Shown here piece after piece: positions 430 to 26,877 of a stretch of 32,162 nt of DNA (position 1 is the stretch's first letter; each line of letters opens with the position of its first letter). The translations under genes and the position numbers were made by a program. The DNA is taken from the NCBI GenBank assembly GCA_007125545.1, contig SLDA01000050.1, forward strand, positions 1 through 32,162, in the 5' to 3' direction. The notes under the pieces were generated by a model that was not told where the DNA came from, did no database searches, and saw only the letters and a program-made list of their open reading frames with translations. This stretch comes from Thermoflexales bacterium. Lineage in GTDB: Bacteria > Chloroflexota > Anaerolineae > B4-G1 > SLSP01.

Positions 430-2496
430 ATGCCGGTGGATAAGGTTGTCAAGCGTGATGGGTCGGAGGAGGCCTTTGATCGGGTCCGGATAGAGCGAGC
501 GATCTATGCCGCAGCCCGCGCAGTCGGGAACGGTCTTGGTCGCACGTGGGCGGAAACACTGTCGTGGGCGGTGGTGGCGCTGCTAGATGAACGTATCAAC
601 GGCAGCGGAAAAGCGCCTCATGTGGAGGATATCCAGGACCTTGTCGAGGAGGTTCTGGTCAAGTCGGAGCATCTTCGGGTAGCCAAGGCATACATTTTAT
701 ACCGGCAGCAGCGTGCGGAGGCGCGCGACACGACACGAATGCTGCTGGATTCTGAGAAGCTGGTAGACGATTACCTCGGACGGGCCGACTGGCGGGTGAC
801 TGAGAACAGCAATATGAACTATTCGCTACAGGGCCTCAACTTCTACGTGGCCTCGTCGATAGCGGCCCGCTACTGGTTGCACCGCATTTATCCCCCCGAG
901 GTCCAGGAGGCCCATGCCGGTGCCGACATTCACGTGCATGATCTCGGGATGCTGTCAGTCTACTGCTGTGGCTGGGATCTGCAGGATTTGCTGGATCAAG
1001 GGTTCGGCGGCGTCGCGGCGAAGGTCGAGAGCAAACCACCCCGACATCTGCGTACCGCCTTGGGCCAGCTCGTCAACTTCTTCTACACGCTGCAGGGCGA
1101 GTCCGCAGGTGCCGTCGCTGTCTCGAACTTCGACACGCTGCTGGCACCCTTTGTGCGCTACGATGGGTTGGATTATGCTCAGGTCAAGCAAGCTATGCAG
1201 GAGTTTGTCTATAATATCAACGTTCCAACGCGTGTAGGCTTTCAAACTCCGTTTACCAACCTGACAATGGATCTGGTCCCACCCTCAACACTCGCCAACG
1301 AAGCCGTGGTGCTGGGGGGAGAGACATTGGACGCCGTCTACGGCGAATTCCAGGCGGAGATGAACCTGATCAATCGCGCCTTTGCCGAAGTTATGGTAGA
1401 AGGTGATGCGCGGGGGCGTGTCTTTACTTTTCCCATCCCCACGTACAATATCACCCCCGACTTTAACTGGGAGAACCCCGAACTGGAGCCGGTCTGGGCG
1501 ATGACCGCTCGCTACGGTACGCCCTACTTCGCCAATTTCGTCAACAGCGAGATGAGCCCGGATGACGCGCGGAGCATGTGCTGCCGTCTGCGCCTGGACA
1601 ACCGCGAGCTGCGTAATCGCATGGGCGGTCTCTTCGCAGCGGCGCCCCTTACGGGATCCGTGGGTGTCGTGACCATCAATATGGCACGTCTGGGCTACAC
1701 CGCTCGCCACGAGCCCGACTTCCGAGAGCGGCTGGAGCGATTGATGGAAGTTGCGCGGACGAGCCTCGAGATCAAACGCAAGATGCTGGAGTCTCTAACG
1801 GAACGTGGCCTCTACCCTTACAGCTACCACTATCTCCGCGACGTCAAGGCTGCCACGGGAGGATACTGGAGCAACCACTTCTCGACCATTGGCCTCAACG
1901 GGATGAACGAAGCGTGTTTGAATCTGCTGGGCGTGGACATTGCACATCCCGAAGGGCGTGCCTTCGCGTTGCGCACTCTCGAGTTTATGCGCGACATTCT
2001 GACGCGATTCCAGGAGGAGACCGGCAATCTCTACAATCTCGAAGCTACGCCGGCAGAAGGGGCCACGTACCGGCTGGCCCGCACAGACCTGGAACGCTAT
2101 CCCGATATCATCACCGCGGGCACCTCGGTGTCGCCTTACTATACCAACTCCACTCATCTGCCGGTTAACTACAGTGATGACCTCTTCGAGGTGCTGGACC
2201 ACCAGGATGAGCTTCAGAAGCTCTACTCTGGCGGGACCGTGTTGCATATCTTCCTTGGTGAGCAGCTTGAGGATTGGCGGCAAGCTCGCGATCTGGTGCG
2301 GACCGTCGCCGAGAATTACAGCTTGCCCTACTATACATTGACGCCGACATTCAGTGTCTGTCCGGTTCACGGTTATATAAGCGGGGAGCACCGGTATTGT
2401 CCGTATGCGCATACGCCCGAGGAACTGGCGCGTTTCGGGGTGTCGGTCGCCGGAGTTCCTGTTCCAGCGGCCTCTTTAGTGTCGGTTAGTGATTAG
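430..2496 (+). CDS. nrdD: anaerobic ribonucleoside-triphosphate reductase, large polypeptide (ATP-cone + catalytic barrel, lacks glycyl radical domain)
   Basis: ORF 382..2496; ATG at 430 preceded by AAGGAG. N-terminal ATP-cone (VVKRDGSEEAFDRVRIERAI), NMNYSLQGLNFYVAS...HVHDLGMLSVYCCGWDLQDLL, C-terminal TPTFSVCPVHGYISGEH. Confidence 0.93.
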   Translation: MPVDKVVKRDGSEEAFDRVRIERAIYAAARAVGNGLGRTWAETLSWAVVALLDERINGSGKAPHVEDIQDLVEEVLVKSEHLRVAKAYILYRQQRAEARDTTRMLLDSEKLVDDYLGRADWRVTENSNMNYSLQGLNFYVASSIAARYWLHRIYPPEVQEAHAGADIHVHDLGMLSVYCCGWDLQDLLDQGFGGVAAKVESKPPRHLRTALGQLVNFFYTLQGESAGAVAVSNFDTLLAPFVRYDGLDYAQVKQAMQEFVYNINVPTRVGFQTPFTNLTMDLVPPSTLANEAVVLGGETLDAVYGEFQAEMNLINRAFAEVMVEGDARGRVFTFPIPTYNITPDFNWENPELEPVWAMTARYGTPYFANFVNSEMSPDDARSMCCRLRLDNRELRNRMGGLFAAAPLTGSVGVVTINMARLGYTARHEPDFRERLERLMEVARTSLEIKRKMLESLTERGLYPYSYHYLRDVKAATGGYWSNHFSTIGLNGMNEACLNLLGVDIAHPEGRAFALRTLEFMRDILTRFQEETGNLYNLEATPAEGATYRLARTDLERYPDIITAGTSVSPYYTNSTHLPVNYSDDLFEVLDHQDELQKLYSGGTVLHIFLGEQLEDWRQARDLVRTVAENYSLPYYTLTPTFSVCPVHGYISGEHRYCPYAHTPEELARFGVSVAGVPVPAASLVSVSD

Positions 2497-19047: not shown

Positions 19048-21480
19048 TCAAGTCCCCGGGTAGATCTGATAGCGCTTCCGTATGCAGAGGATGGCCGAAT
19101 TCGCCGCTTGCTGAACGCCAGCATCGGACTCTCCGAGGAGCGGATCCAGGATTCGTAGGTCGGCTTTACGACCTATCTGCGCTAACGTGAGGGCGCTCAG
19201 GATCTTCGCGTCGACGTTGCCCTCGTGTGCTGCGCGTCCGAGCATCTCCAGCGCGGCATCTCCCACGCCTAGTCCGAGACCCTGACGTGCAGCCCATGCA
19301 ATGAGCCATTCCATTTGATCGACTTGGGGCGGTTTGGGTATGCGTGTTTGGCGCCCGATACGTTCCTCTTGCCGCTGCAGGGCGCTATCAGCAGCGGACC
19401 GAACGAGCCATTCCGAATCCTCGCGTGCCATCTCCAGCAACCGCTCTCGGGCCCAGTCTTCCATCACATATCCCAGTCCGTGCGCAACAGCACGGCGGAC
19501 CAGTAAGTCTGGGTGTGCTGTAGCTTCTTCCAGCGCTTGCCATCCCTCGGACGATGCGCTTAATGCTTCGGCTATGACCAGCATCAGCGTGTCAGGGGCG
19601 TCCGGAAGACTCTCTGCCAGGTAAGCTGTGGCGCCTGCTGTGTGGGTGTCGCGGAGAGCGAGGACGGCACTCTCACGGAGGCCATCGTTGGATTCACGCA
19701 GTGCGGCGGCCAAGACCGCCATATCCCGTGATGCCCCTGCCCAGCCCAGTCCCCGCAAGGCAGCTTTTCGTACGTCGAGCGACGTATGCCGAAGCATGCG
19801 CAGGAAGAAGGCGCGAGCCCCTTCGCCGGCGACAAGATTCAGGGCTTGGCCCAGCCGGAGCCGTGTCTCATAGTCGAGTGCGTCTCTCATAAAGGTTTGG
19901 GCGATTGAGCGTGTGAGTTGCTTGCGCCACGGACGGTCTGATTCGGCAACTATACCCCAGCGTGCTGCACGGAGTAGAGCGTCTTGATCATCGTAGACGT
20001 CAGCATGGTTGATGATCACACCGACTGTGGTCTCGACATCTGCCAACCCTGCATAGAACTCGGAAAGTGTGAACCACAGGGGATCGTGGAGGTGGTCACG
20101 GACAATCTCTTCTCCCCTCTCATCCAGTGCGAGGTGCAGCGCGGTAAGATAGTCCTCCCATATCGGATGGATCGGCACCCACGTTTTGCCCTTCTGAACC
20201 AAGATCCCCGACTCCTCGACAAGCTGTCGCACGGCCCTATCAAGTCGACGTGGACGATCCTCTTTCGGGGGTAGGAGCTCCTCGATCAGCTCGAGGATCT
20301 GCTGTCCCGTCATAGACACGGATTCCAGGCGATGGGCGGCAGCGACGGACACGATAGCACGAAGGGCCAAGTCTCTAGCCATTTCCGCAACTGCCTCTTG
20401 CCCCTTTCCCAGGTCCACAGCCTCAAGGTTCGTCTCCAGTAGACGCCCCAAGATCTCAGCAGGACGTTCCGGCAACTCCTGTGTGCGTAAGTAGAGGATG
20501 GCTCGAAGATGCAGTTCCCAGAGTGGACTCTGGGCAGCGACAGAACACAATAGCGTCTCCAGCGCCGTGTCCGAAAGCGGAGTCGTGGCTCCACCCAGCT
20601 CTTGAGACCAATGCTGGAGGAGATTCGGTATATTTATCTCGGTTGTCGGGGGCAGCAACCGGGCAGGGACAAACCCCACCTCTACCAGGTCACCGTAGCC
20701 TTCATCGCTCGACGCAATGAGCCACAAGGCATCGTGACATTGTGCGTCGGCTTCAGCGATCCAGTGAGCCATCTGTGTGCGAGTGTCGGGCGCGAGCAGA
20801 TCCCAATCATCGACCACAATAAGGCAGCTTTCCTTGCGAAGCTGTTGAAGGATCCACTTCGAGGCCAACCCAGGCACCACTGAGGCTGCGAGGTTGGCGA
20901 TCCGTTCCTCGGACGAGACAAGCTCGCCGTCTCTCGTTGTGCCGGCTTCAGCGCTGTCGATCCAGAAGGGAAGGCGCTTAGCAGACGACTTGTCATTTTG
21001 GGCCGGCGAATCGGTAGCATGCCACACTGAGAGGATAAGGGTGGTCGTGCGCCCGGAACCAGGAGGGCCGGTGATAATGACCTTGTTGTGCCCTTCCAGC
21101 AGCCCTGCGTACGGCACCGTGATCGAACGGGCTGACCGAGCGGCTTCACCCAGGGTGGTAGGGAGCGGGGCGAACGCCAGAAAACTGGGTTCTTGCATGA
21201 TCGATTCAGGAGCTTTGGGCCTAAGGAGCAAGCGCTGCCGGAGAACGGCCTTGAGGGCCCGTACGAATTTTTCCTCCCGGCTGGCCTGGACGCGAGATCT
21301 CCATGCGACAAAAGGCTCCCAGATGCTCTTTAGGGTACTCTGAATCGCTGTCCGTTGGCTGTAGAGCAGTCCGATAAGGATCCACGCCAATAGCGCTCCG
21401 ATGAGCGCGGAACGGAAATCGAACGCCCATCCTTCCTGACGCTGAGAGATCGTGGATGATAGCCAGATCGCAGCTTGCAA
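19048..21480 (-). CDS. membrane-anchored P-loop (NACHT/STAND-like) NTPase with C-terminal HEAT-like repeats
   Basis: N-terminal TM ALIGALLAWILIGLLY; Walker A VIITGPPGSGRTTTLIL; Walker B-like CLIVVDDWD; C-terminal repeats LDVRKAALRGLGWAG..., DGLRESAVLALRDTH..., LVRRAVAHGLGYV.... Start appears to be TTG, 3 nt after the upstream stop; an internal start is possible. Confidence 0.78.
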   Translation of the reverse strand: MQAAIWLSSTISQRQEGWAFDFRSALIGALLAWILIGLLYSQRTAIQSTLKSIWEPFVAWRSRVQASREEKFVRALKAVLRQRLLLRPKAPESIMQEPSFLAFAPLPTTLGEAARSARSITVPYAGLLEGHNKVIITGPPGSGRTTTLILSVWHATDSPAQNDKSSAKRLPFWIDSAEAGTTRDGELVSSEERIANLAASVVPGLASKWILQQLRKESCLIVVDDWDLLAPDTRTQMAHWIAEADAQCHDALWLIASSDEGYGDLVEVGFVPARLLPPTTEINIPNLLQHWSQELGGATTPLSDTALETLLCSVAAQSPLWELHLRAILYLRTQELPERPAEILGRLLETNLEAVDLGKGQEAVAEMARDLALRAIVSVAAAHRLESVSMTGQQILELIEELLPPKEDRPRRLDRAVRQLVEESGILVQKGKTWVPIHPIWEDYLTALHLALDERGEEIVRDHLHDPLWFTLSEFYAGLADVETTVGVIINHADVYDDQDALLRAARWGIVAESDRPWRKQLTRSIAQTFMRDALDYETRLRLGQALNLVAGEGARAFFLRMLRHTSLDVRKAALRGLGWAGASRDMAVLAAALRESNDGLRESAVLALRDTHTAGATAYLAESLPDAPDTLMLVIAEALSASSEGWQALEEATAHPDLLVRRAVAHGLGYVMEDWARERLLEMAREDSEWLVRSAADSALQRQEERIGRQTRIPKPPQVDQMEWLIAWAARQGLGLGVGDAALEMLGRAAHEGNVDAKILSALTLAQIGRKADLRILDPLLGESDAGVQQAANSAILCIRKRYQIYPGT

Positions 21481-21483
21481 AGC

Positions 21484-22185
21484 CTAAGCCTCATTCTCCT
21501 GTGTTTCAACGACGAGCCGGTATCCTTGTCCCCGTTCGCTGACGATGCGCTGGGGCTCGCGGGGATCCTCTTCGACCTTCTGGCGTAGATACCAGATGTA
21601 GAGTTTAAGATAGTCCCGCCGATTCGAATACTCGGGCCCCCACACGCGCCGCAAGAGCGTGTCGTGGCTGACGGTTCGTCCCGCGTCCTGAACGAGAGCA
21701 GAGAGCAACTGGAATTCGGTGGGTGTGAGACTCACCTCGCGACTATCAATCTTGACCTCGTGGGTGTCGAGGTTCACCTGAAGGCCCCCTGCCTCGAAAA
21801 CGGTCTGTTCACCTCGGGCGCGCCGAGCTCGTGAGAGCGCGGCTTTGACACGCGTGACCAACTCTTTATACCCAAAGGGTTTCACGATGTAGTCATCGGC
21901 ACCCAAGCCGAGGCCATAGGTAATATTGTGTTCGTCGCCCAGCGCGGTGAGGAATAGAACGGGTGCATCTGTAATGCGCCGCAGTCCCTCGTAGACGTGC
22001 CACCCATCCATGTCCGGCATCAAGATATCCAGCAGGACCAGGCTAGGGGCCACCTGTCGTGCCAACTTGAGACCGGCTTCTCCGTGGTTGGCTACCTTGA
22101 CCTCATAACCGGCGCGCTCCAGCAGGAGTTGTACCAACTGGGCCAGGGCTTCATCATCCTCAATCAATAGAATCGTCTCGGTCAT
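21484..22185 (-). CDS. OmpR/PhoB-family response regulator
   Basis: Receiver ILLIEDDEALAQLV..LVLLDILMPDMDGW..LFLTAL..GADDYIVKPF; C-terminal winged helix LTPTEFQLLSALVQDAGRTVSHDTLLRRVWGPEYSNRRDYLKLYIWYLRQKVEEDP. Confidence 0.96.
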   Translation of the reverse strand: MTETILLIEDDEALAQLVQLLLERAGYEVKVANHGEAGLKLARQVAPSLVLLDILMPDMDGWHVYEGLRRITDAPVLFLTALGDEHNITYGLGLGADDYIVKPFGYKELVTRVKAALSRARRARGEQTVFEAGGLQVNLDTHEVKIDSREVSLTPTEFQLLSALVQDAGRTVSHDTLLRRVWGPEYSNRRDYLKLYIWYLRQKVEEDPREPQRIVSERGQGYRLVVETQENEA

Positions 22186-22414: not shown

Positions 22415-25114
22415 TTACCTAGCGAGTTCCCGTTCCAGCACGTGCTGCAGAAGGCTGCTTCCGATGTCCGCTGCGGCGCGGCTGCCTCGTGCAGAACTCT
22501 CAATCTCGTCGAGGAGTACCGCGACAGCATAGCGTGGGAGCGTAGCGGAGTTTAGGCCGATAAACCACGCTTGTTGTCGTTGTGGTCCCGCTAGCGAGAG
22601 GCCGGAATGGCCGACCGCCCCGCCATACGAGGACAACATCCGAAGCATCTGGTCCGCTACCTCAGCCTCGACCACGCGAGACGGGGCCGTCTCCGGGTTC
22701 TCATTGAACAGGCATCCCCTTTGAGGCTGACTGAGGATTTGCAGCGTTGGGAGGATGCCGTCATTGCCCAAAGTTGCCATAGCCAGGGCCATCTGCAGGG
22801 GTGTTACAAGGAGCTTGCCTTGCCCGAGAGCTTCGACCTGGGCCTCCAAGGGTGCCTCGGGCAGATCGGAGGCAACTGTAGGCAGAGCAAAGGAAGGGGC
22901 ATCGAGCAGCCCCCACGTGGCAAGCCAACTCGTGAAACGTTGATCACCCGCTTGCTGCGCGGTAACGACAAAGGGGTAAGGACAAGCTGACTGAAGTGCG
23001 GCGCTCCACAGATCAGCAGTCTGTGTAATTCCCGGCGGTTGGCGACATGCCAGGCTAATACCATTGAACGTGACGGACCGGGTAATCGGTGTGGCGGGCA
23101 CCAGCGTTGCATCGTCTTGGAGGGCGGACGCTAGAATGAAGGGCTGGAGACTGCTTCCCGGTTGTGCGAGTCCTTGTGTGGCCCGGTTGAGCAGGGGCGA
23201 GTTTGGTGCATCGCGCAGCGTTGCCCACTCCTGGGACACCGTCCCGGCGTTGTAGACCGGCGAGGAAGCCAACGCCAGAATTTCGCCGGTGCGCGCGTCG
23301 AGGAGCACGGCTGCTCCGACAGAGTCGCCGAGGAGGCTCTGTGCCGCTTCCTGGAGTCGAGCATCAATGGTAAGTTGGACATCTCGGCCCACAGGATCAA
23401 TATGGAGAAGTTGGTGCTCGAGCGCCTTCTGCGGCGTGATGCCAACTTCCCCTCGTAGGCGAGCATCGCAGGTCGCCTCTATACCGGCTGTCCCGTAAGC
23501 CAAGCTGGCGTAGCCGACCACCGGTGCGGCTTCGGGTACTGGATAGGTACGCGTGACGTATCCCTGCGGACTGAGCGTGATATCCGCGAGCGGAACGCCG
23601 TTGCGGTCGAGAATACGCCCGCGGCGAATACGGCCTTCCGCCAGGACGTATCTGGGGTTGGATAAGGACTGCTGCAGGCTTGCCGCGCGTGAAATGGCCC
23701 AGTAGCCGGTAATGAGCGCCGTGCTGAGAAGCAGCAGCATAAGTCCCTGGCCGAGATGAGCGGCCATGCGTTTGGGTGGCTGGTTGATCCCCGGCAGAAG
23801 TGAGAGATTAAGCGGCATCGGATGGGGAGCCGATAGATTCAGAAGCAGACCGGTGGCGATCAGGACGGTAGTCAACGATGACCCACCGTAGCTCAAGAAG
23901 GGCAGCGTTACCCCTGTCAAAGGAATGAGCTTGGCGTTGCCCCCTACGATCACCCATGTCTGCACGCCGATCAGCGCCGCGATGCCTCCGGCAAGTAAGG
24001 CCTCGAAACCGGACTCGGAGTCCTGAGCCAGACGAACACCCCGGTAGATGAATGCCGCAAGGAGCAGTAGCAAGCCCAGGCCGCCTGCAAGGCCAAATTC
24101 CTCGACCAAGGCAGCATAGACGAAGTCGGTATGCACAGCCGGAATAAGCCCAGGCAGCCCTTGGCCCAGACCTTGCCCGAACAAGCCTCCAGAGGCAAAG
24201 GCAAAAAGCGATTGTAGGATCTGGAATGCGCGGTCGGCTTGCGCCGGGGACCAGGGATCAAGCCATATATCGACGCGGAGCGCTACTCTACTTGAGAGCA
24301 GATAACCCGCCACCCCAACGGGTAGGAAGAGCGCGAAGCTGAGCAGCGTATACCAGGGATTGCCCCAGGCGAGGTAAATCATCAGCGCGAACGTCATGTA
24401 GAACAAGAGCGCCGCCCCCAAGTCCTGTTGCCATCCAAGCAAGAGCAGGGCTAGCCCTACCATTGCTGCCATCGGCCCGAGCACGACTAACCACAGTGGC
24501 TTACCGGCTGCCCGCATGCTGGGTAGGTCCCGCTTGTCGGCCAGGTAGGCGGCAAGATAGATCACCAGCAGCAATTTGAGTGGTTCTGAAGGTTGGAGAT
24601 AGATTCCCAGGGCCCCTAGCCAGAGCCGTTGACCATACCCGGATGGGTTTGTGCCGAAGATCAGCGTCATCCCGAGTAGGAGCAGGCCCGCTGTCAGAAG
24701 CGTATAGCGATAGCGACGCAGGATCCGGGTCAGGTTCGGTGTGACCGCCACTGCACACATCGCCGCACAGCCCATAAGCAACCAGAGCACTTGCTTGAGT
24801 AGCGGCGCCGGTGCGAGACGTGCTTGCAAGAGCAAGCCCCAACCCGTAAGTAGCGCCACAATGGGAAGCAGAACGAGATCGAAGCGTGTCAGCCGCCTGC
24901 GCAAGAAGAGTGCGCTCCCGCCCCACGCCAGGCTCCAACCCCCGACCACAATAACAATCTGCCAGAGGGTAAGGGTGACAGGATAGGGCGTTAGATGCAG
25001 GGTGATAGCTCCTGCGAGCATAAATAGCATCGCCAGGGCTGCTAAGAGCAGCGTGATCGTCTTCTCCGAGATAGACAACCGGTGCCGAAGCGGGCGAAAG
25101 GCTTGGGTTCCCAT
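22415..25114 (-). CDS. FtsW/RodA/SpoVE-family SEDS protein fused to a degenerate penicillin-binding (transpeptidase-like) domain
   Basis: SEDS part: YGQRLWLGALGIYLQPSEPLKLLLVIYLA, QSLFAFASGGLFGQGLGQGLPGLIPAVHTDFVYAALVEEFGLAGG, LPFLSYGGSSL. PBP part: EGRIRRGRILDRNGVPLADI, QPGSSLQPFILASAL, GQGKLLVTPLQMALAMATLGNDG. Start ATG 25114 (ORF opens at TTG 25135). Confidence 0.88.
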   Translation of the reverse strand: MGTQAFRPLRHRLSISEKTITLLLAALAMLFMLAGAITLHLTPYPVTLTLWQIVIVVGGWSLAWGGSALFLRRRLTRFDLVLLPIVALLTGWGLLLQARLAPAPLLKQVLWLLMGCAAMCAVAVTPNLTRILRRYRYTLLTAGLLLLGMTLIFGTNPSGYGQRLWLGALGIYLQPSEPLKLLLVIYLAAYLADKRDLPSMRAAGKPLWLVVLGPMAAMVGLALLLLGWQQDLGAALLFYMTFALMIYLAWGNPWYTLLSFALFLPVGVAGYLLSSRVALRVDIWLDPWSPAQADRAFQILQSLFAFASGGLFGQGLGQGLPGLIPAVHTDFVYAALVEEFGLAGGLGLLLLLAAFIYRGVRLAQDSESGFEALLAGGIAALIGVQTWVIVGGNAKLIPLTGVTLPFLSYGGSSLTTVLIATGLLLNLSAPHPMPLNLSLLPGINQPPKRMAAHLGQGLMLLLLSTALITGYWAISRAASLQQSLSNPRYVLAEGRIRRGRILDRNGVPLADITLSPQGYVTRTYPVPEAAPVVGYASLAYGTAGIEATCDARLRGEVGITPQKALEHQLLHIDPVGRDVQLTIDARLQEAAQSLLGDSVGAAVLLDARTGEILALASSPVYNAGTVSQEWATLRDAPNSPLLNRATQGLAQPGSSLQPFILASALQDDATLVPATPITRSVTFNGISLACRQPPGITQTADLWSAALQSACPYPFVVTAQQAGDQRFTSWLATWGLLDAPSFALPTVASDLPEAPLEAQVEALGQGKLLVTPLQMALAMATLGNDGILPTLQILSQPQRGCLFNENPETAPSRVVEAEVADQMLRMLSSYGGAVGHSGLSLAGPQRQQAWFIGLNSATLPRYAVAVLLDEIESSARGSRAAADIGSSLLQHVLERELAR

Positions 25115-25131: not shown

Positions 25132-26001
25132 TCAAGCCGAGCCCGAATCGATGAGAAGGGCGAGTTTCTGCTTCGTCTCCTCTGAAACGCGCGCCGGATC
25201 GGTGATCAATGCAGTCTCCAGGGCATAGCGGCAGTCGCAGGCCCGCTCTGCTGCTATGAGCTCGGGTACGAGCTTGCGGATAGTATCTTGGGCTAACTCG
25301 GTGTTAGCGTTGAGCTGCCGGATGACCATGTCTACGGTCACCGTTTCCTCTGACTCATGCCAAACATCGTAGTCGGTCACGTGGGCCATCGTAGTGTAGC
25401 AGATACCTGCCTCGCGCGCCAGGAACACCTCGGGGCTGGCGGTCATACCAATGATGTCCATACCCCATGAACGGAAGACACGACTCTCCGCCTTGGTGCT
25501 GAATCGCGGTCCCTCGATTGTGATGAAGGTGCCGCCCTCGTGGAGGGACGTCCCGAGCTCACGCATAGTTTCAATCAACATCGCGGAGAGATCCGTACAG
25601 AAAGGCTCTGCCGAAGATATGTGGGCCACGAGCCCGCTTTCGAAGAAGCTCTGAGTGCGCTGCTTCGTGAAGTCGAAGAGCTGGTCAGGCACGACGATAT
25701 CACCTGGTTTCATATGCTCGCGCAGGGATCCGCAGGCAGAAACGCTGATGATTCTCTCGACGCCGAGTTGTTTCAGCGCATAGATATTGGCGCGGTATGG
25801 GACCTCCGTGGGCCTATGCACGTGTCCTCGACCGTGACGGGGCAGGAAGGCGACCGCTGTGCCGGCAATTTCGCCGATGATAATCGCATCGCTGGGCTTG
25901 CCGAATGGCGTGTTGAGCTCGACTTCGCGGACAGCCTCAAGTCCCTGCATCTGGTAGAGGCCCGATCCTCCAATGATGGCAATCTTTGCATTATTCGTCA
26001 T
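25132..26001 (-). CDS. mtnP: S-methyl-5'-thioadenosine phosphorylase (MTAP/PNP family)
   Basis: KIAIIGGSGLYQM, VAFLPRHGRGHVHRPTEVPYRANIYALKQLGVERIISVSACGSLRE, TFITIEGPRFSTKAESRVFRSWGMDIIGMTASPEVFLAREAGICYTTMAHVTDYD. Confidence 0.93.
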   Translation of the reverse strand: MTNNAKIAIIGGSGLYQMQGLEAVREVELNTPFGKPSDAIIIGEIAGTAVAFLPRHGRGHVHRPTEVPYRANIYALKQLGVERIISVSACGSLREHMKPGDIVVPDQLFDFTKQRTQSFFESGLVAHISSAEPFCTDLSAMLIETMRELGTSLHEGGTFITIEGPRFSTKAESRVFRSWGMDIIGMTASPEVFLAREAGICYTTMAHVTDYDVWHESEETVTVDMVIRQLNANTELAQDTIRKLVPELIAAERACDCRYALETALITDPARVSEETKQKLALLIDSGSA

Positions 26002-26359
26002 CTGATTCCTCCTCGGCTACAACGAAGGTCAGCGATCCGTGGCAACGGCCACAGCCAACCATAGGATTCTCGACACGACTGCGGCTCTTCGTACAGGTCG
26101 CATCGATCAACATTCGCGATTTCTGCCAAAAGCGCCAACCCTTCCCGCCAATCCGGCCTTGCAGAATCATATCCGGGCAGTGGTTAGCACGCTTGATATC
26201 CGGCACAGGGCAGGTGAAACAGATCTCGGACGTCCAGACGGCGGCGTCCGGTTTCGTCGCCACGAGGTGGCAGTACTCCCGCATGCCGGCACGCCGGTGA
26301 GCATCGGCATAGTAGAAGGGGCACTCCCGCCCGTCGGGTGTTCGCATTCGTGAATTCAC
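25991..26359 (-). CDS. small cysteine-rich protein of unknown function
   Basis: GTG start overlapping the stop of the upstream ORF; eight Cys (CPF..YCH..ICFTCP..HCP..TCT..GCGRCH); overlaps mtnP start. Confidence 0.7.
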   Translation of the reverse strand: MNSRMRTPDGRECPFYYADAHRRAGMREYCHLVATKPDAAVWTSEICFTCPVPDIKRANHCPDMILQGRIGGKGWRFWQKSRMLIDATCTKSRSRVENPMVGCGRCHGSLTFVVAEEESDDE

Positions 26360-26877
26360 GCCTGGAGATAGCTCTGCACGGAGTGGCGGTTGACATAGAG
26401 CAAGGGTACCTGAGCCGGAAGTTGGGCGCTGCTGGTAGCCAGATAGTGAATCTGAGCATTCGTCACCGGGAAGAACAGCCCTTTCCAGAAGTCCAGAAAG
26501 TTGTTCAAGCGCGCCTCGCTAAGGAAAGGCGCATTCCCCCGGATCACAGCAAGAGGTAGGTTTAGGATTAGCGTCGAAGTTCGCGGTGCTTCGCGAAACT
26601 GGCTCTGGGCTTCCTCGCCCTTGAAAAGCAGGAACTGGACACTCTCTCGCTGCAACACGATCTTGGAGGGACGGCTCTGCGGAAGGCTCGTGAATGCCCA
26701 AGGTGTCACATGGGTATCATTGAGCATCAAGAAGTCCATCCCATCCTGGTTAAGGTAGTTATGAGGGTCTCCAAGCGTGTCCATAGTGCCCTCAATCAGG
26801 TGTAGATCATTGACTGCTAATGTCCGGTGCCGTTGCACCGGTGAACCGATTTCTGATCTATCTATCCGCAAACTCAT
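26356..26877 (-). CDS. uncharacterised protein, co-transcribed with the Cys-rich ORF
   Basis: Strong SD AAGGAGG upstream of ATG; 4-nt overlap with the next ORF; family not recognised. Confidence 0.75.
   Translation of the reverse strand: MSLRIDRSEIGSPVQRHRTLAVNDLHLIEGTMDTLGDPHNYLNQDGMDFLMLNDTHVTPWAFTSLPQSRPSKIVLQRESVQFLLFKGEEAQSQFREAPRTSTLILNLPLAVIRGNAPFLSEARLNNFLDFWKGLFFPVTNAQIHYLATSSAQLPAQVPLLYVNRHSVQSYLQA

Follow-up and report, generated by a model that had tools for sequence, protein, structure and literature searches.

The window, a 32,162-nucleotide stretch of a Thermoflexales bacterium (Chloroflexota, class Anaerolineae; GCA_007125545.1, contig SLDA01000050.1), carries on its minus strand a gene (22415-25114) that joins in a single chain a SEDS polymerase and a class B penicillin-binding protein (bPBP) whose transpeptidase domain has none of the three catalytic motifs. 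We regard this fusion as probably a SEDS polymerase that permanently carries its cognate PbpA-type bPBP as a pseudoenzyme, which holds and activates it. For the wider group we lean towards the view that, in much of the Anaerolineae, one of three SEDS synthases uses a bPBP that has been non-catalytic since an ancient loss, with repeated fusion and some paring down, and that other penicillin-binding proteins (PBPs) and L,D-transpeptidases perform the cross-linking.

A SEDS-PbpA chain without transpeptidase motifs

The open reading frame is uninterrupted from an ATG at 25114 (an alternative TTG start lies at 25135, seven codons further upstream) to its stop codon; it encodes 899 residues and its orthologues align over the full length. 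All three of its Pfam domains exceed their cut-offs, and the original prediction of a single-chain SEDS-PBP fusion is thus borne out. The GC content at third codon positions, 0.68 and 0.64 in the two halves, is similar to that of the adjacent genes. The SEDS glycosyltransferase domain (residues 106-429; 23828-24799 on the minus strand, as are all features of the window given below) matches PF01098 (FTSW_RODA_SPOVE) with 238 bits against a cut-off of 26.4. Its signature had been read as intact, and indeed the HTDF motif (residues 328-331, 24122-24133) includes the catalytic-type aspartate D330, the equivalent of D262 in E. coli RodA; this aspartate is present in 99/99 readable SEDS proteins of the dead clade and in 14/14 of the catalytic clade. 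This half is predicted to be a glycan-strand polymerase that would polymerise lipid II.

After a short, lower-confidence linker, the PBP half has a transmembrane helix (residues 447-475, 23690-23776), assigned from the secondary structure and the predicted local distance difference test (pLDDT) scores of an AlphaFold2 (AF2) model. Next come a PbpA-type dimerisation domain, or pedestal (residues 498-568, 23411-23623; PBP_dimer_2, PF21922, 33.4 bits, cut-off 27), and the pseudo-transpeptidase domain (residues 600-889, 22448-23317; PF00905, 94.5 bits, cut-off 22.1). The AF2 model of the fusion is confident (mean pLDDT 86.1, predicted TM-score 0.79) and the solved fold nearest to it, which is also the fold match of the pseudo-transpeptidase domain, is that of M. 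tuberculosis PbpA (3un7, 3lo7; TM-score 0.75-0.80 on the target). By descent the bPBP half belongs to the PbpA type, and not to the PBP2 or FtsI type, because it has the PF21922 pedestal, because 3un7 comes first in the fold search and because it is syntenic with a PbpA-type SEDS gene.

The transpeptidase fold is kept, and at each motif different residues are found. SxxK is replaced by S654-S-L-Q657 (23144-23155, codons AGC AGT CTC CAG), exactly as originally claimed, and SxN by A710-C711-P712 (22979-22987), inside the very QSACPYPF segment (residues 708-715, 22970-22993) that had been singled out. The third loss is also real, although its position had been misplaced: alignment puts the equivalent of KTG not at GLSLAG but two residues N-terminal, at H836-S837-G838 (22601-22609). 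A plain motif scan across all 899 residues found no S-x-x-K, S-x-N or K-T/S-G, and hence no complete triad at any other site; K563 and K767 are the only lysines of the C-terminal half. Lacking all of the motifs SxxK, SxN and KTG by which a catalytic bPBP is recognised, the domain is predicted to be non-catalytic.

Catalytic loss and fusion across the class

The fusion is found throughout the order (a search of 99 relatives). For the class Anaerolineae, the best copies from a profile search over 396 genomes were aligned; 111 rows, which come from 108 genomes and 21 family codes, have no working active site, to be compared with 19 rows with intact motifs (one of which ends before KTG, another being a Firmicutes record). 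The recurrence of the three losses in all these copies and genomes excludes chance, decay in a single genome or a sequencing error. The SxxK lysine is kept in 0/107 aligned dead copies, the site being Gln in 57 and Glu in 26 (together 83/107), the SxN asparagine in 0/95 (with Pro in 88/95) and the KTG lysine in 2/105 (with His in 57/105). In most dead copies the segment before KTG is also about 12 residues shorter (modally 19-20 residues versus 32). The motifs are therefore missing throughout the order and in much of the class, which is not what a lineage-specific decay would give. What is conserved among the orthologues is the loss of the motif and not SSLQ itself, the serine site being mostly Ala, Gly or Thr. 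The PbpA-type copies checked in other Chloroflexota classes are intact in 24/24 cases, among them L202 (G521), itself a natural SEDS fusion with every motif in place.

Some individual copies stand apart. L166 (G311) is a SEDS-PBP fusion with intact motifs that joins a distant SEDS to a different PBP type, and L081 (G045:C460), whose motifs are likewise intact, is the second SEDS-PBP fusion of a genome that also has a dead one; it is either a paralogue or contamination. In L068 (G053; 527-1666, minus strand) a low-complexity stretch of E, L and G replaces the part from SxxK to SxN, while the copy from the same genus in G120 (L097) is intact; this could be either a recent loss next to G120 or, perhaps, an assembly fault.

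Dead copies exist both as separate genes adjoining SEDS (families f21, f23, f48, f50, f55-f58 and most of f37) and in fused form (f1, f2, f3, f7, f47, f54 and part of f37). Since this is so, and since L202 is fused yet fully intact, catalytic loss and fusion are separate events. To order them we have employed a tree built on the SEDS partners, hence without the lost columns; on this quick and undated tree, parsimony counts two changes between the catalytic and dead states (the starred branches require just one) and about seven between the fused and split states. The simplest reading is that the loss would have come first, and that fusion was secondary and later, occurring several times independently. 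With respect to the prediction of a permanently tethered pseudo-transpeptidase that acts as a structural or regulatory module, the module is still the best-supported reading, but the permanent tether does not apply to the many dead copies that are separate genes.

In families f17, f29, f43, f47 and f6 the middle of the transpeptidase, which bears SxN, has mostly lost its profile match, and the pedestal is fully matched. Copies that miss the SxN-bearing half and keep the pedestal are L170, L172, L174, L175, L065, L066, L067, L176, L177 and L178. Such pared-down copies support the pedestal as the part that may be indispensable. An AF2 model of one of them, L172 (mean pLDDT 59.6 from 8 sequences), was too poor and has not been used.

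Maintenance and probable role of the dead domain

For the transpeptidase part, the pairwise ratios of non-synonymous to synonymous substitution rates (dN/dS) are 0.11-0.23 in dead pairs, compared with 0.12 and 0.25 in the only two catalytic pairs. Positions fixed in catalytic copies but variable in the dead lie mostly in the active site (S654, A710, S837, G838 and their neighbours), and pedestal and core positions remain fixed in the dead copies. Judged from these sequence comparisons, the dead domain is maintained by purifying selection. We accordingly give little credence to the idea that the transpeptidase half is a functionless remnant on its way to being lost. Such decay could explain why dead transpeptidase domains outpace their SEDS in most of the pairs compared (that is, have the higher dN/dS) and why some families are without the SxN-bearing half. 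On the other hand, the domains are stop-free and of full length in most of the 21 families, their dN/dS is far below 1, the fold positions, a cysteine pair and the pedestal are still fixed, the in-frame fusion of dead PBPs to SEDS has been repeated, and the truncated copies retain the pedestal.

The cysteine pair consists of C690 (23045-23047), near-invariant in the dead clade, and its probable disulfide partner C711 (22982-22984); both are present in 92/93 dead copies in which the SxN cysteine column is filled. They align with cysteines of M. tuberculosis PbpA and occur in about half of the catalytic Chloroflexota copies, and because the same pair is found in these catalytic proteins, C690-C711 is probably an inherited disulfide. 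This bears on the suggestion that C711 and H836 could have been re-tooled to serve a new reaction, for which the near-invariance of C711 in the dead clade and the frequent His at the KTG lysine site might be cited. The pairing of C711 with C690, both shared with catalytic PbpA, has the look of inheritance instead, and most of the f37 group, as well as whole other families, lack the His, making a new reaction extremely improbable. It is also unlikely that the former active-site groove is a sensor that binds a ligand (a muropeptide, the lipid II stem or an antibiotic) and so tunes the polymerase. A conserved PG motif beside the former serine, the new C-P-x-P at the SxN position and the Gln or Glu in place of the lysine raise the question of a partly retained pocket, but the serine site (A/G/T/L/S) and the KTG strand (H/F/Q/L) vary freely, unlike a conserved binding site.

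SEDS polymerases need their bPBP. If the dead PbpA-type partner indeed holds and activates its SEDS, as we prefer to think, the pedestal and the dead transpeptidase domain would keep SEDS in its active conformation and might offer regulators a handle on it, and cross-linking of the new strands would fall to FtsI-type, PBP2-type and class A PBPs and to L,D-transpeptidases. That a dead PBP would activate SEDS we infer by analogy. B. subtilis and S. aureus still divide with catalytically dead PBP2B and PBP1, respectively, another PBP doing the cross-linking (PMC8078798), and the S311A form of C. difficile SpoVD still functions, via its SEDS partner SpoVE (PMC12713402). Similarly, a RodA-PBP2 fusion remains able to polymerise when mecillinam blocks its PBP2, and RodA D262A abolishes its activity (PMC6207328); for the RodA-PBP2 complex, MreC binding to the pedestal and movements of the transpeptidase domain have been proposed to gate synthesis (PMC10257715).

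Several points weigh against an activating pseudoenzyme. The activation step is carried over from other bPBPs, the present family being known here from sequences and a predicted structure. The dN/dS comparison has just the two catalytic pairs, and the faster evolution of the transpeptidase part, although expected of a relaxed scaffold, fits slow decay too. Finally, some of the aligned rows are fragments at contig ends, and many of the assemblies are fragmented.

Genomic context and comparison with known systems

The assembly to which the window belongs (5.24 Mb in 642 contigs, 91.7% complete) has three SEDS genes and five transpeptidase domains. Candidates for the separate catalytic bPBPs in the same genome, which the original prediction had made a point to look for, are indeed there. 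Of the four other PBPs, two are of class A, one is a PBP2-type protein above the mrdA equivalog cut-off and one is an FtsI/SpoVD-like bPBP on a contig shared with an FtsW-like SEDS; all four have SxxK and KTG intact (the two motifs for which they were checked). There are also seven YkuD L,D-transpeptidase domains. The median number of these domains is 5 in 24 genomes with dead copies versus 2 in 13 genomes with catalytic PbpA (p = 3e-5). These counts are only suggestive, and weakly so, of an L,D-transpeptidase expansion as compensation, because the number is about 3 in genomes in which no PbpA was detected and the independent losses number only one or two.

The SEDS of the fusion is the third in its genome, besides the RodA and FtsW candidates, and falls below the TIGR FtsW and RodA equivalog cut-offs. 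This might be taken to mean that, together with its dead partner, it makes a polymer other than peptidoglycan, one that needs no D,D-cross-linking. We consider such a role very improbable, as a SEDS of this type is paired, at the corresponding locus of the closest catalytic relatives, with a transpeptidase complete in its motifs, and the SEDS signature residues are unchanged.

Upstream of the fusion, the gene for S-methyl-5'-thioadenosine phosphorylase (MTAP; 25135-26001, TIGR01694 over its cut-off) marks the locus as a PbpA-type pair. The order MTAP-SEDS-PbpA is common to many Chloroflexota families, with catalytic and with dead PbpA alike, and is often preceded upstream by fhaA-fhaB; in the Firmicutes relative L050 the order is FhaA-FHA-PP2C-SEDS-PbpA-PASTA kinase, and the operon of the window has no FHA gene. 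This conserved synteny confirms the PbpA descent of the dead partner. MTAP is likewise directly upstream of SEDS/PbpA in L214, L215, L217, L218, L220-L224, L230, L043 and L045, an arrangement that may connect methylthioadenosine salvage with wall synthesis. Between ligA and MTAP/SEDS are two conserved, essentially unannotated genes, for proteins of 173 residues (26359-26877; only a weak DUF6812 match) and 122 residues (25994-26359), a pair that is conserved within the family of the window. After the fusion come genes for an OmpR-type response regulator (21487-22185) and a HEAT-repeat protein (19051-21480), which are conserved in the family of the window (L039-L047) and possibly form a regulatory unit.

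Whether a bPBP is kept mainly for cross-linking or for switching on its SEDS has been debated so far from point mutants. Here, many lineages would have made the separation themselves, providing comparative data on the bPBP surfaces needed for activation alone. A pair of SEDS and dead PbpA should be insensitive to beta-lactams, and a natural single-chain SEDS-bPBP incapable of cross-linking would lend itself to structural and in vitro studies. If true, our reading would be natural proof that SEDS activation can be separated from transpeptidation by the partner and is the more conserved of the two. In the literature searched, outside which most subscription journals fall, we found no description of a natural bPBP partner that lacks its catalytic residues, nor any Chloroflexota SEDS-PBP study or pseudoenzyme bPBP. 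Within that literature a naturally dead bPBP partner is apparently new.

Natural SEDS-PBP single-chain fusions, by contrast, are already known, as had been supposed: Nygaard et al. 2023 (PMC10449877) cite a case from the Rhodococcus RHA1 genome. The natural and engineered fusions (PMC10449877, PMC6207328) have the same arrangement as the window protein, SEDS then bPBP in one chain, and the engineered ones are functional; in the engineered RodA-PBP2 (PMC6207328), however, the transpeptidase is active, whereas in the window fusion it is dead. The laboratory mutants of PBP2B, PBP1 and SpoVD (S311A) resemble it in that the protein is needed though its transpeptidase is dead and other PBPs cross-link (PMC8078798, PMC12713402), but these are engineered point changes, while the dead state in the Anaerolineae is natural and spans 21 families. 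The RodA-PBP2 complexes of E. coli (8tj3) and T. thermophilus (6pl5) likewise unite a SEDS with its bPBP and conserve the catalytic aspartate; they differ in having a PBP2-type pedestal and an active transpeptidase, and in the genome of the window a PBP2-type protein and a RodA candidate exist apart from the fusion. With respect to the rodA-pbpA pair in the fha-PP2C-kinase operons of actinobacteria and Firmicutes, L050 keeps the order and several Chloroflexota keep fhaA-fhaB, unlike the FHA-less operon of the window. M. tuberculosis PbpA (3un7, 3lo7) provides the best fold match and shares the PF21922 pedestal and the aligned cysteine pair; its own motifs are STFK, SCN and KTG and it is penicillin-acylated in crystals (3upo), whereas the fusion has lost all three motifs and has its SEDS partner in the same chain.
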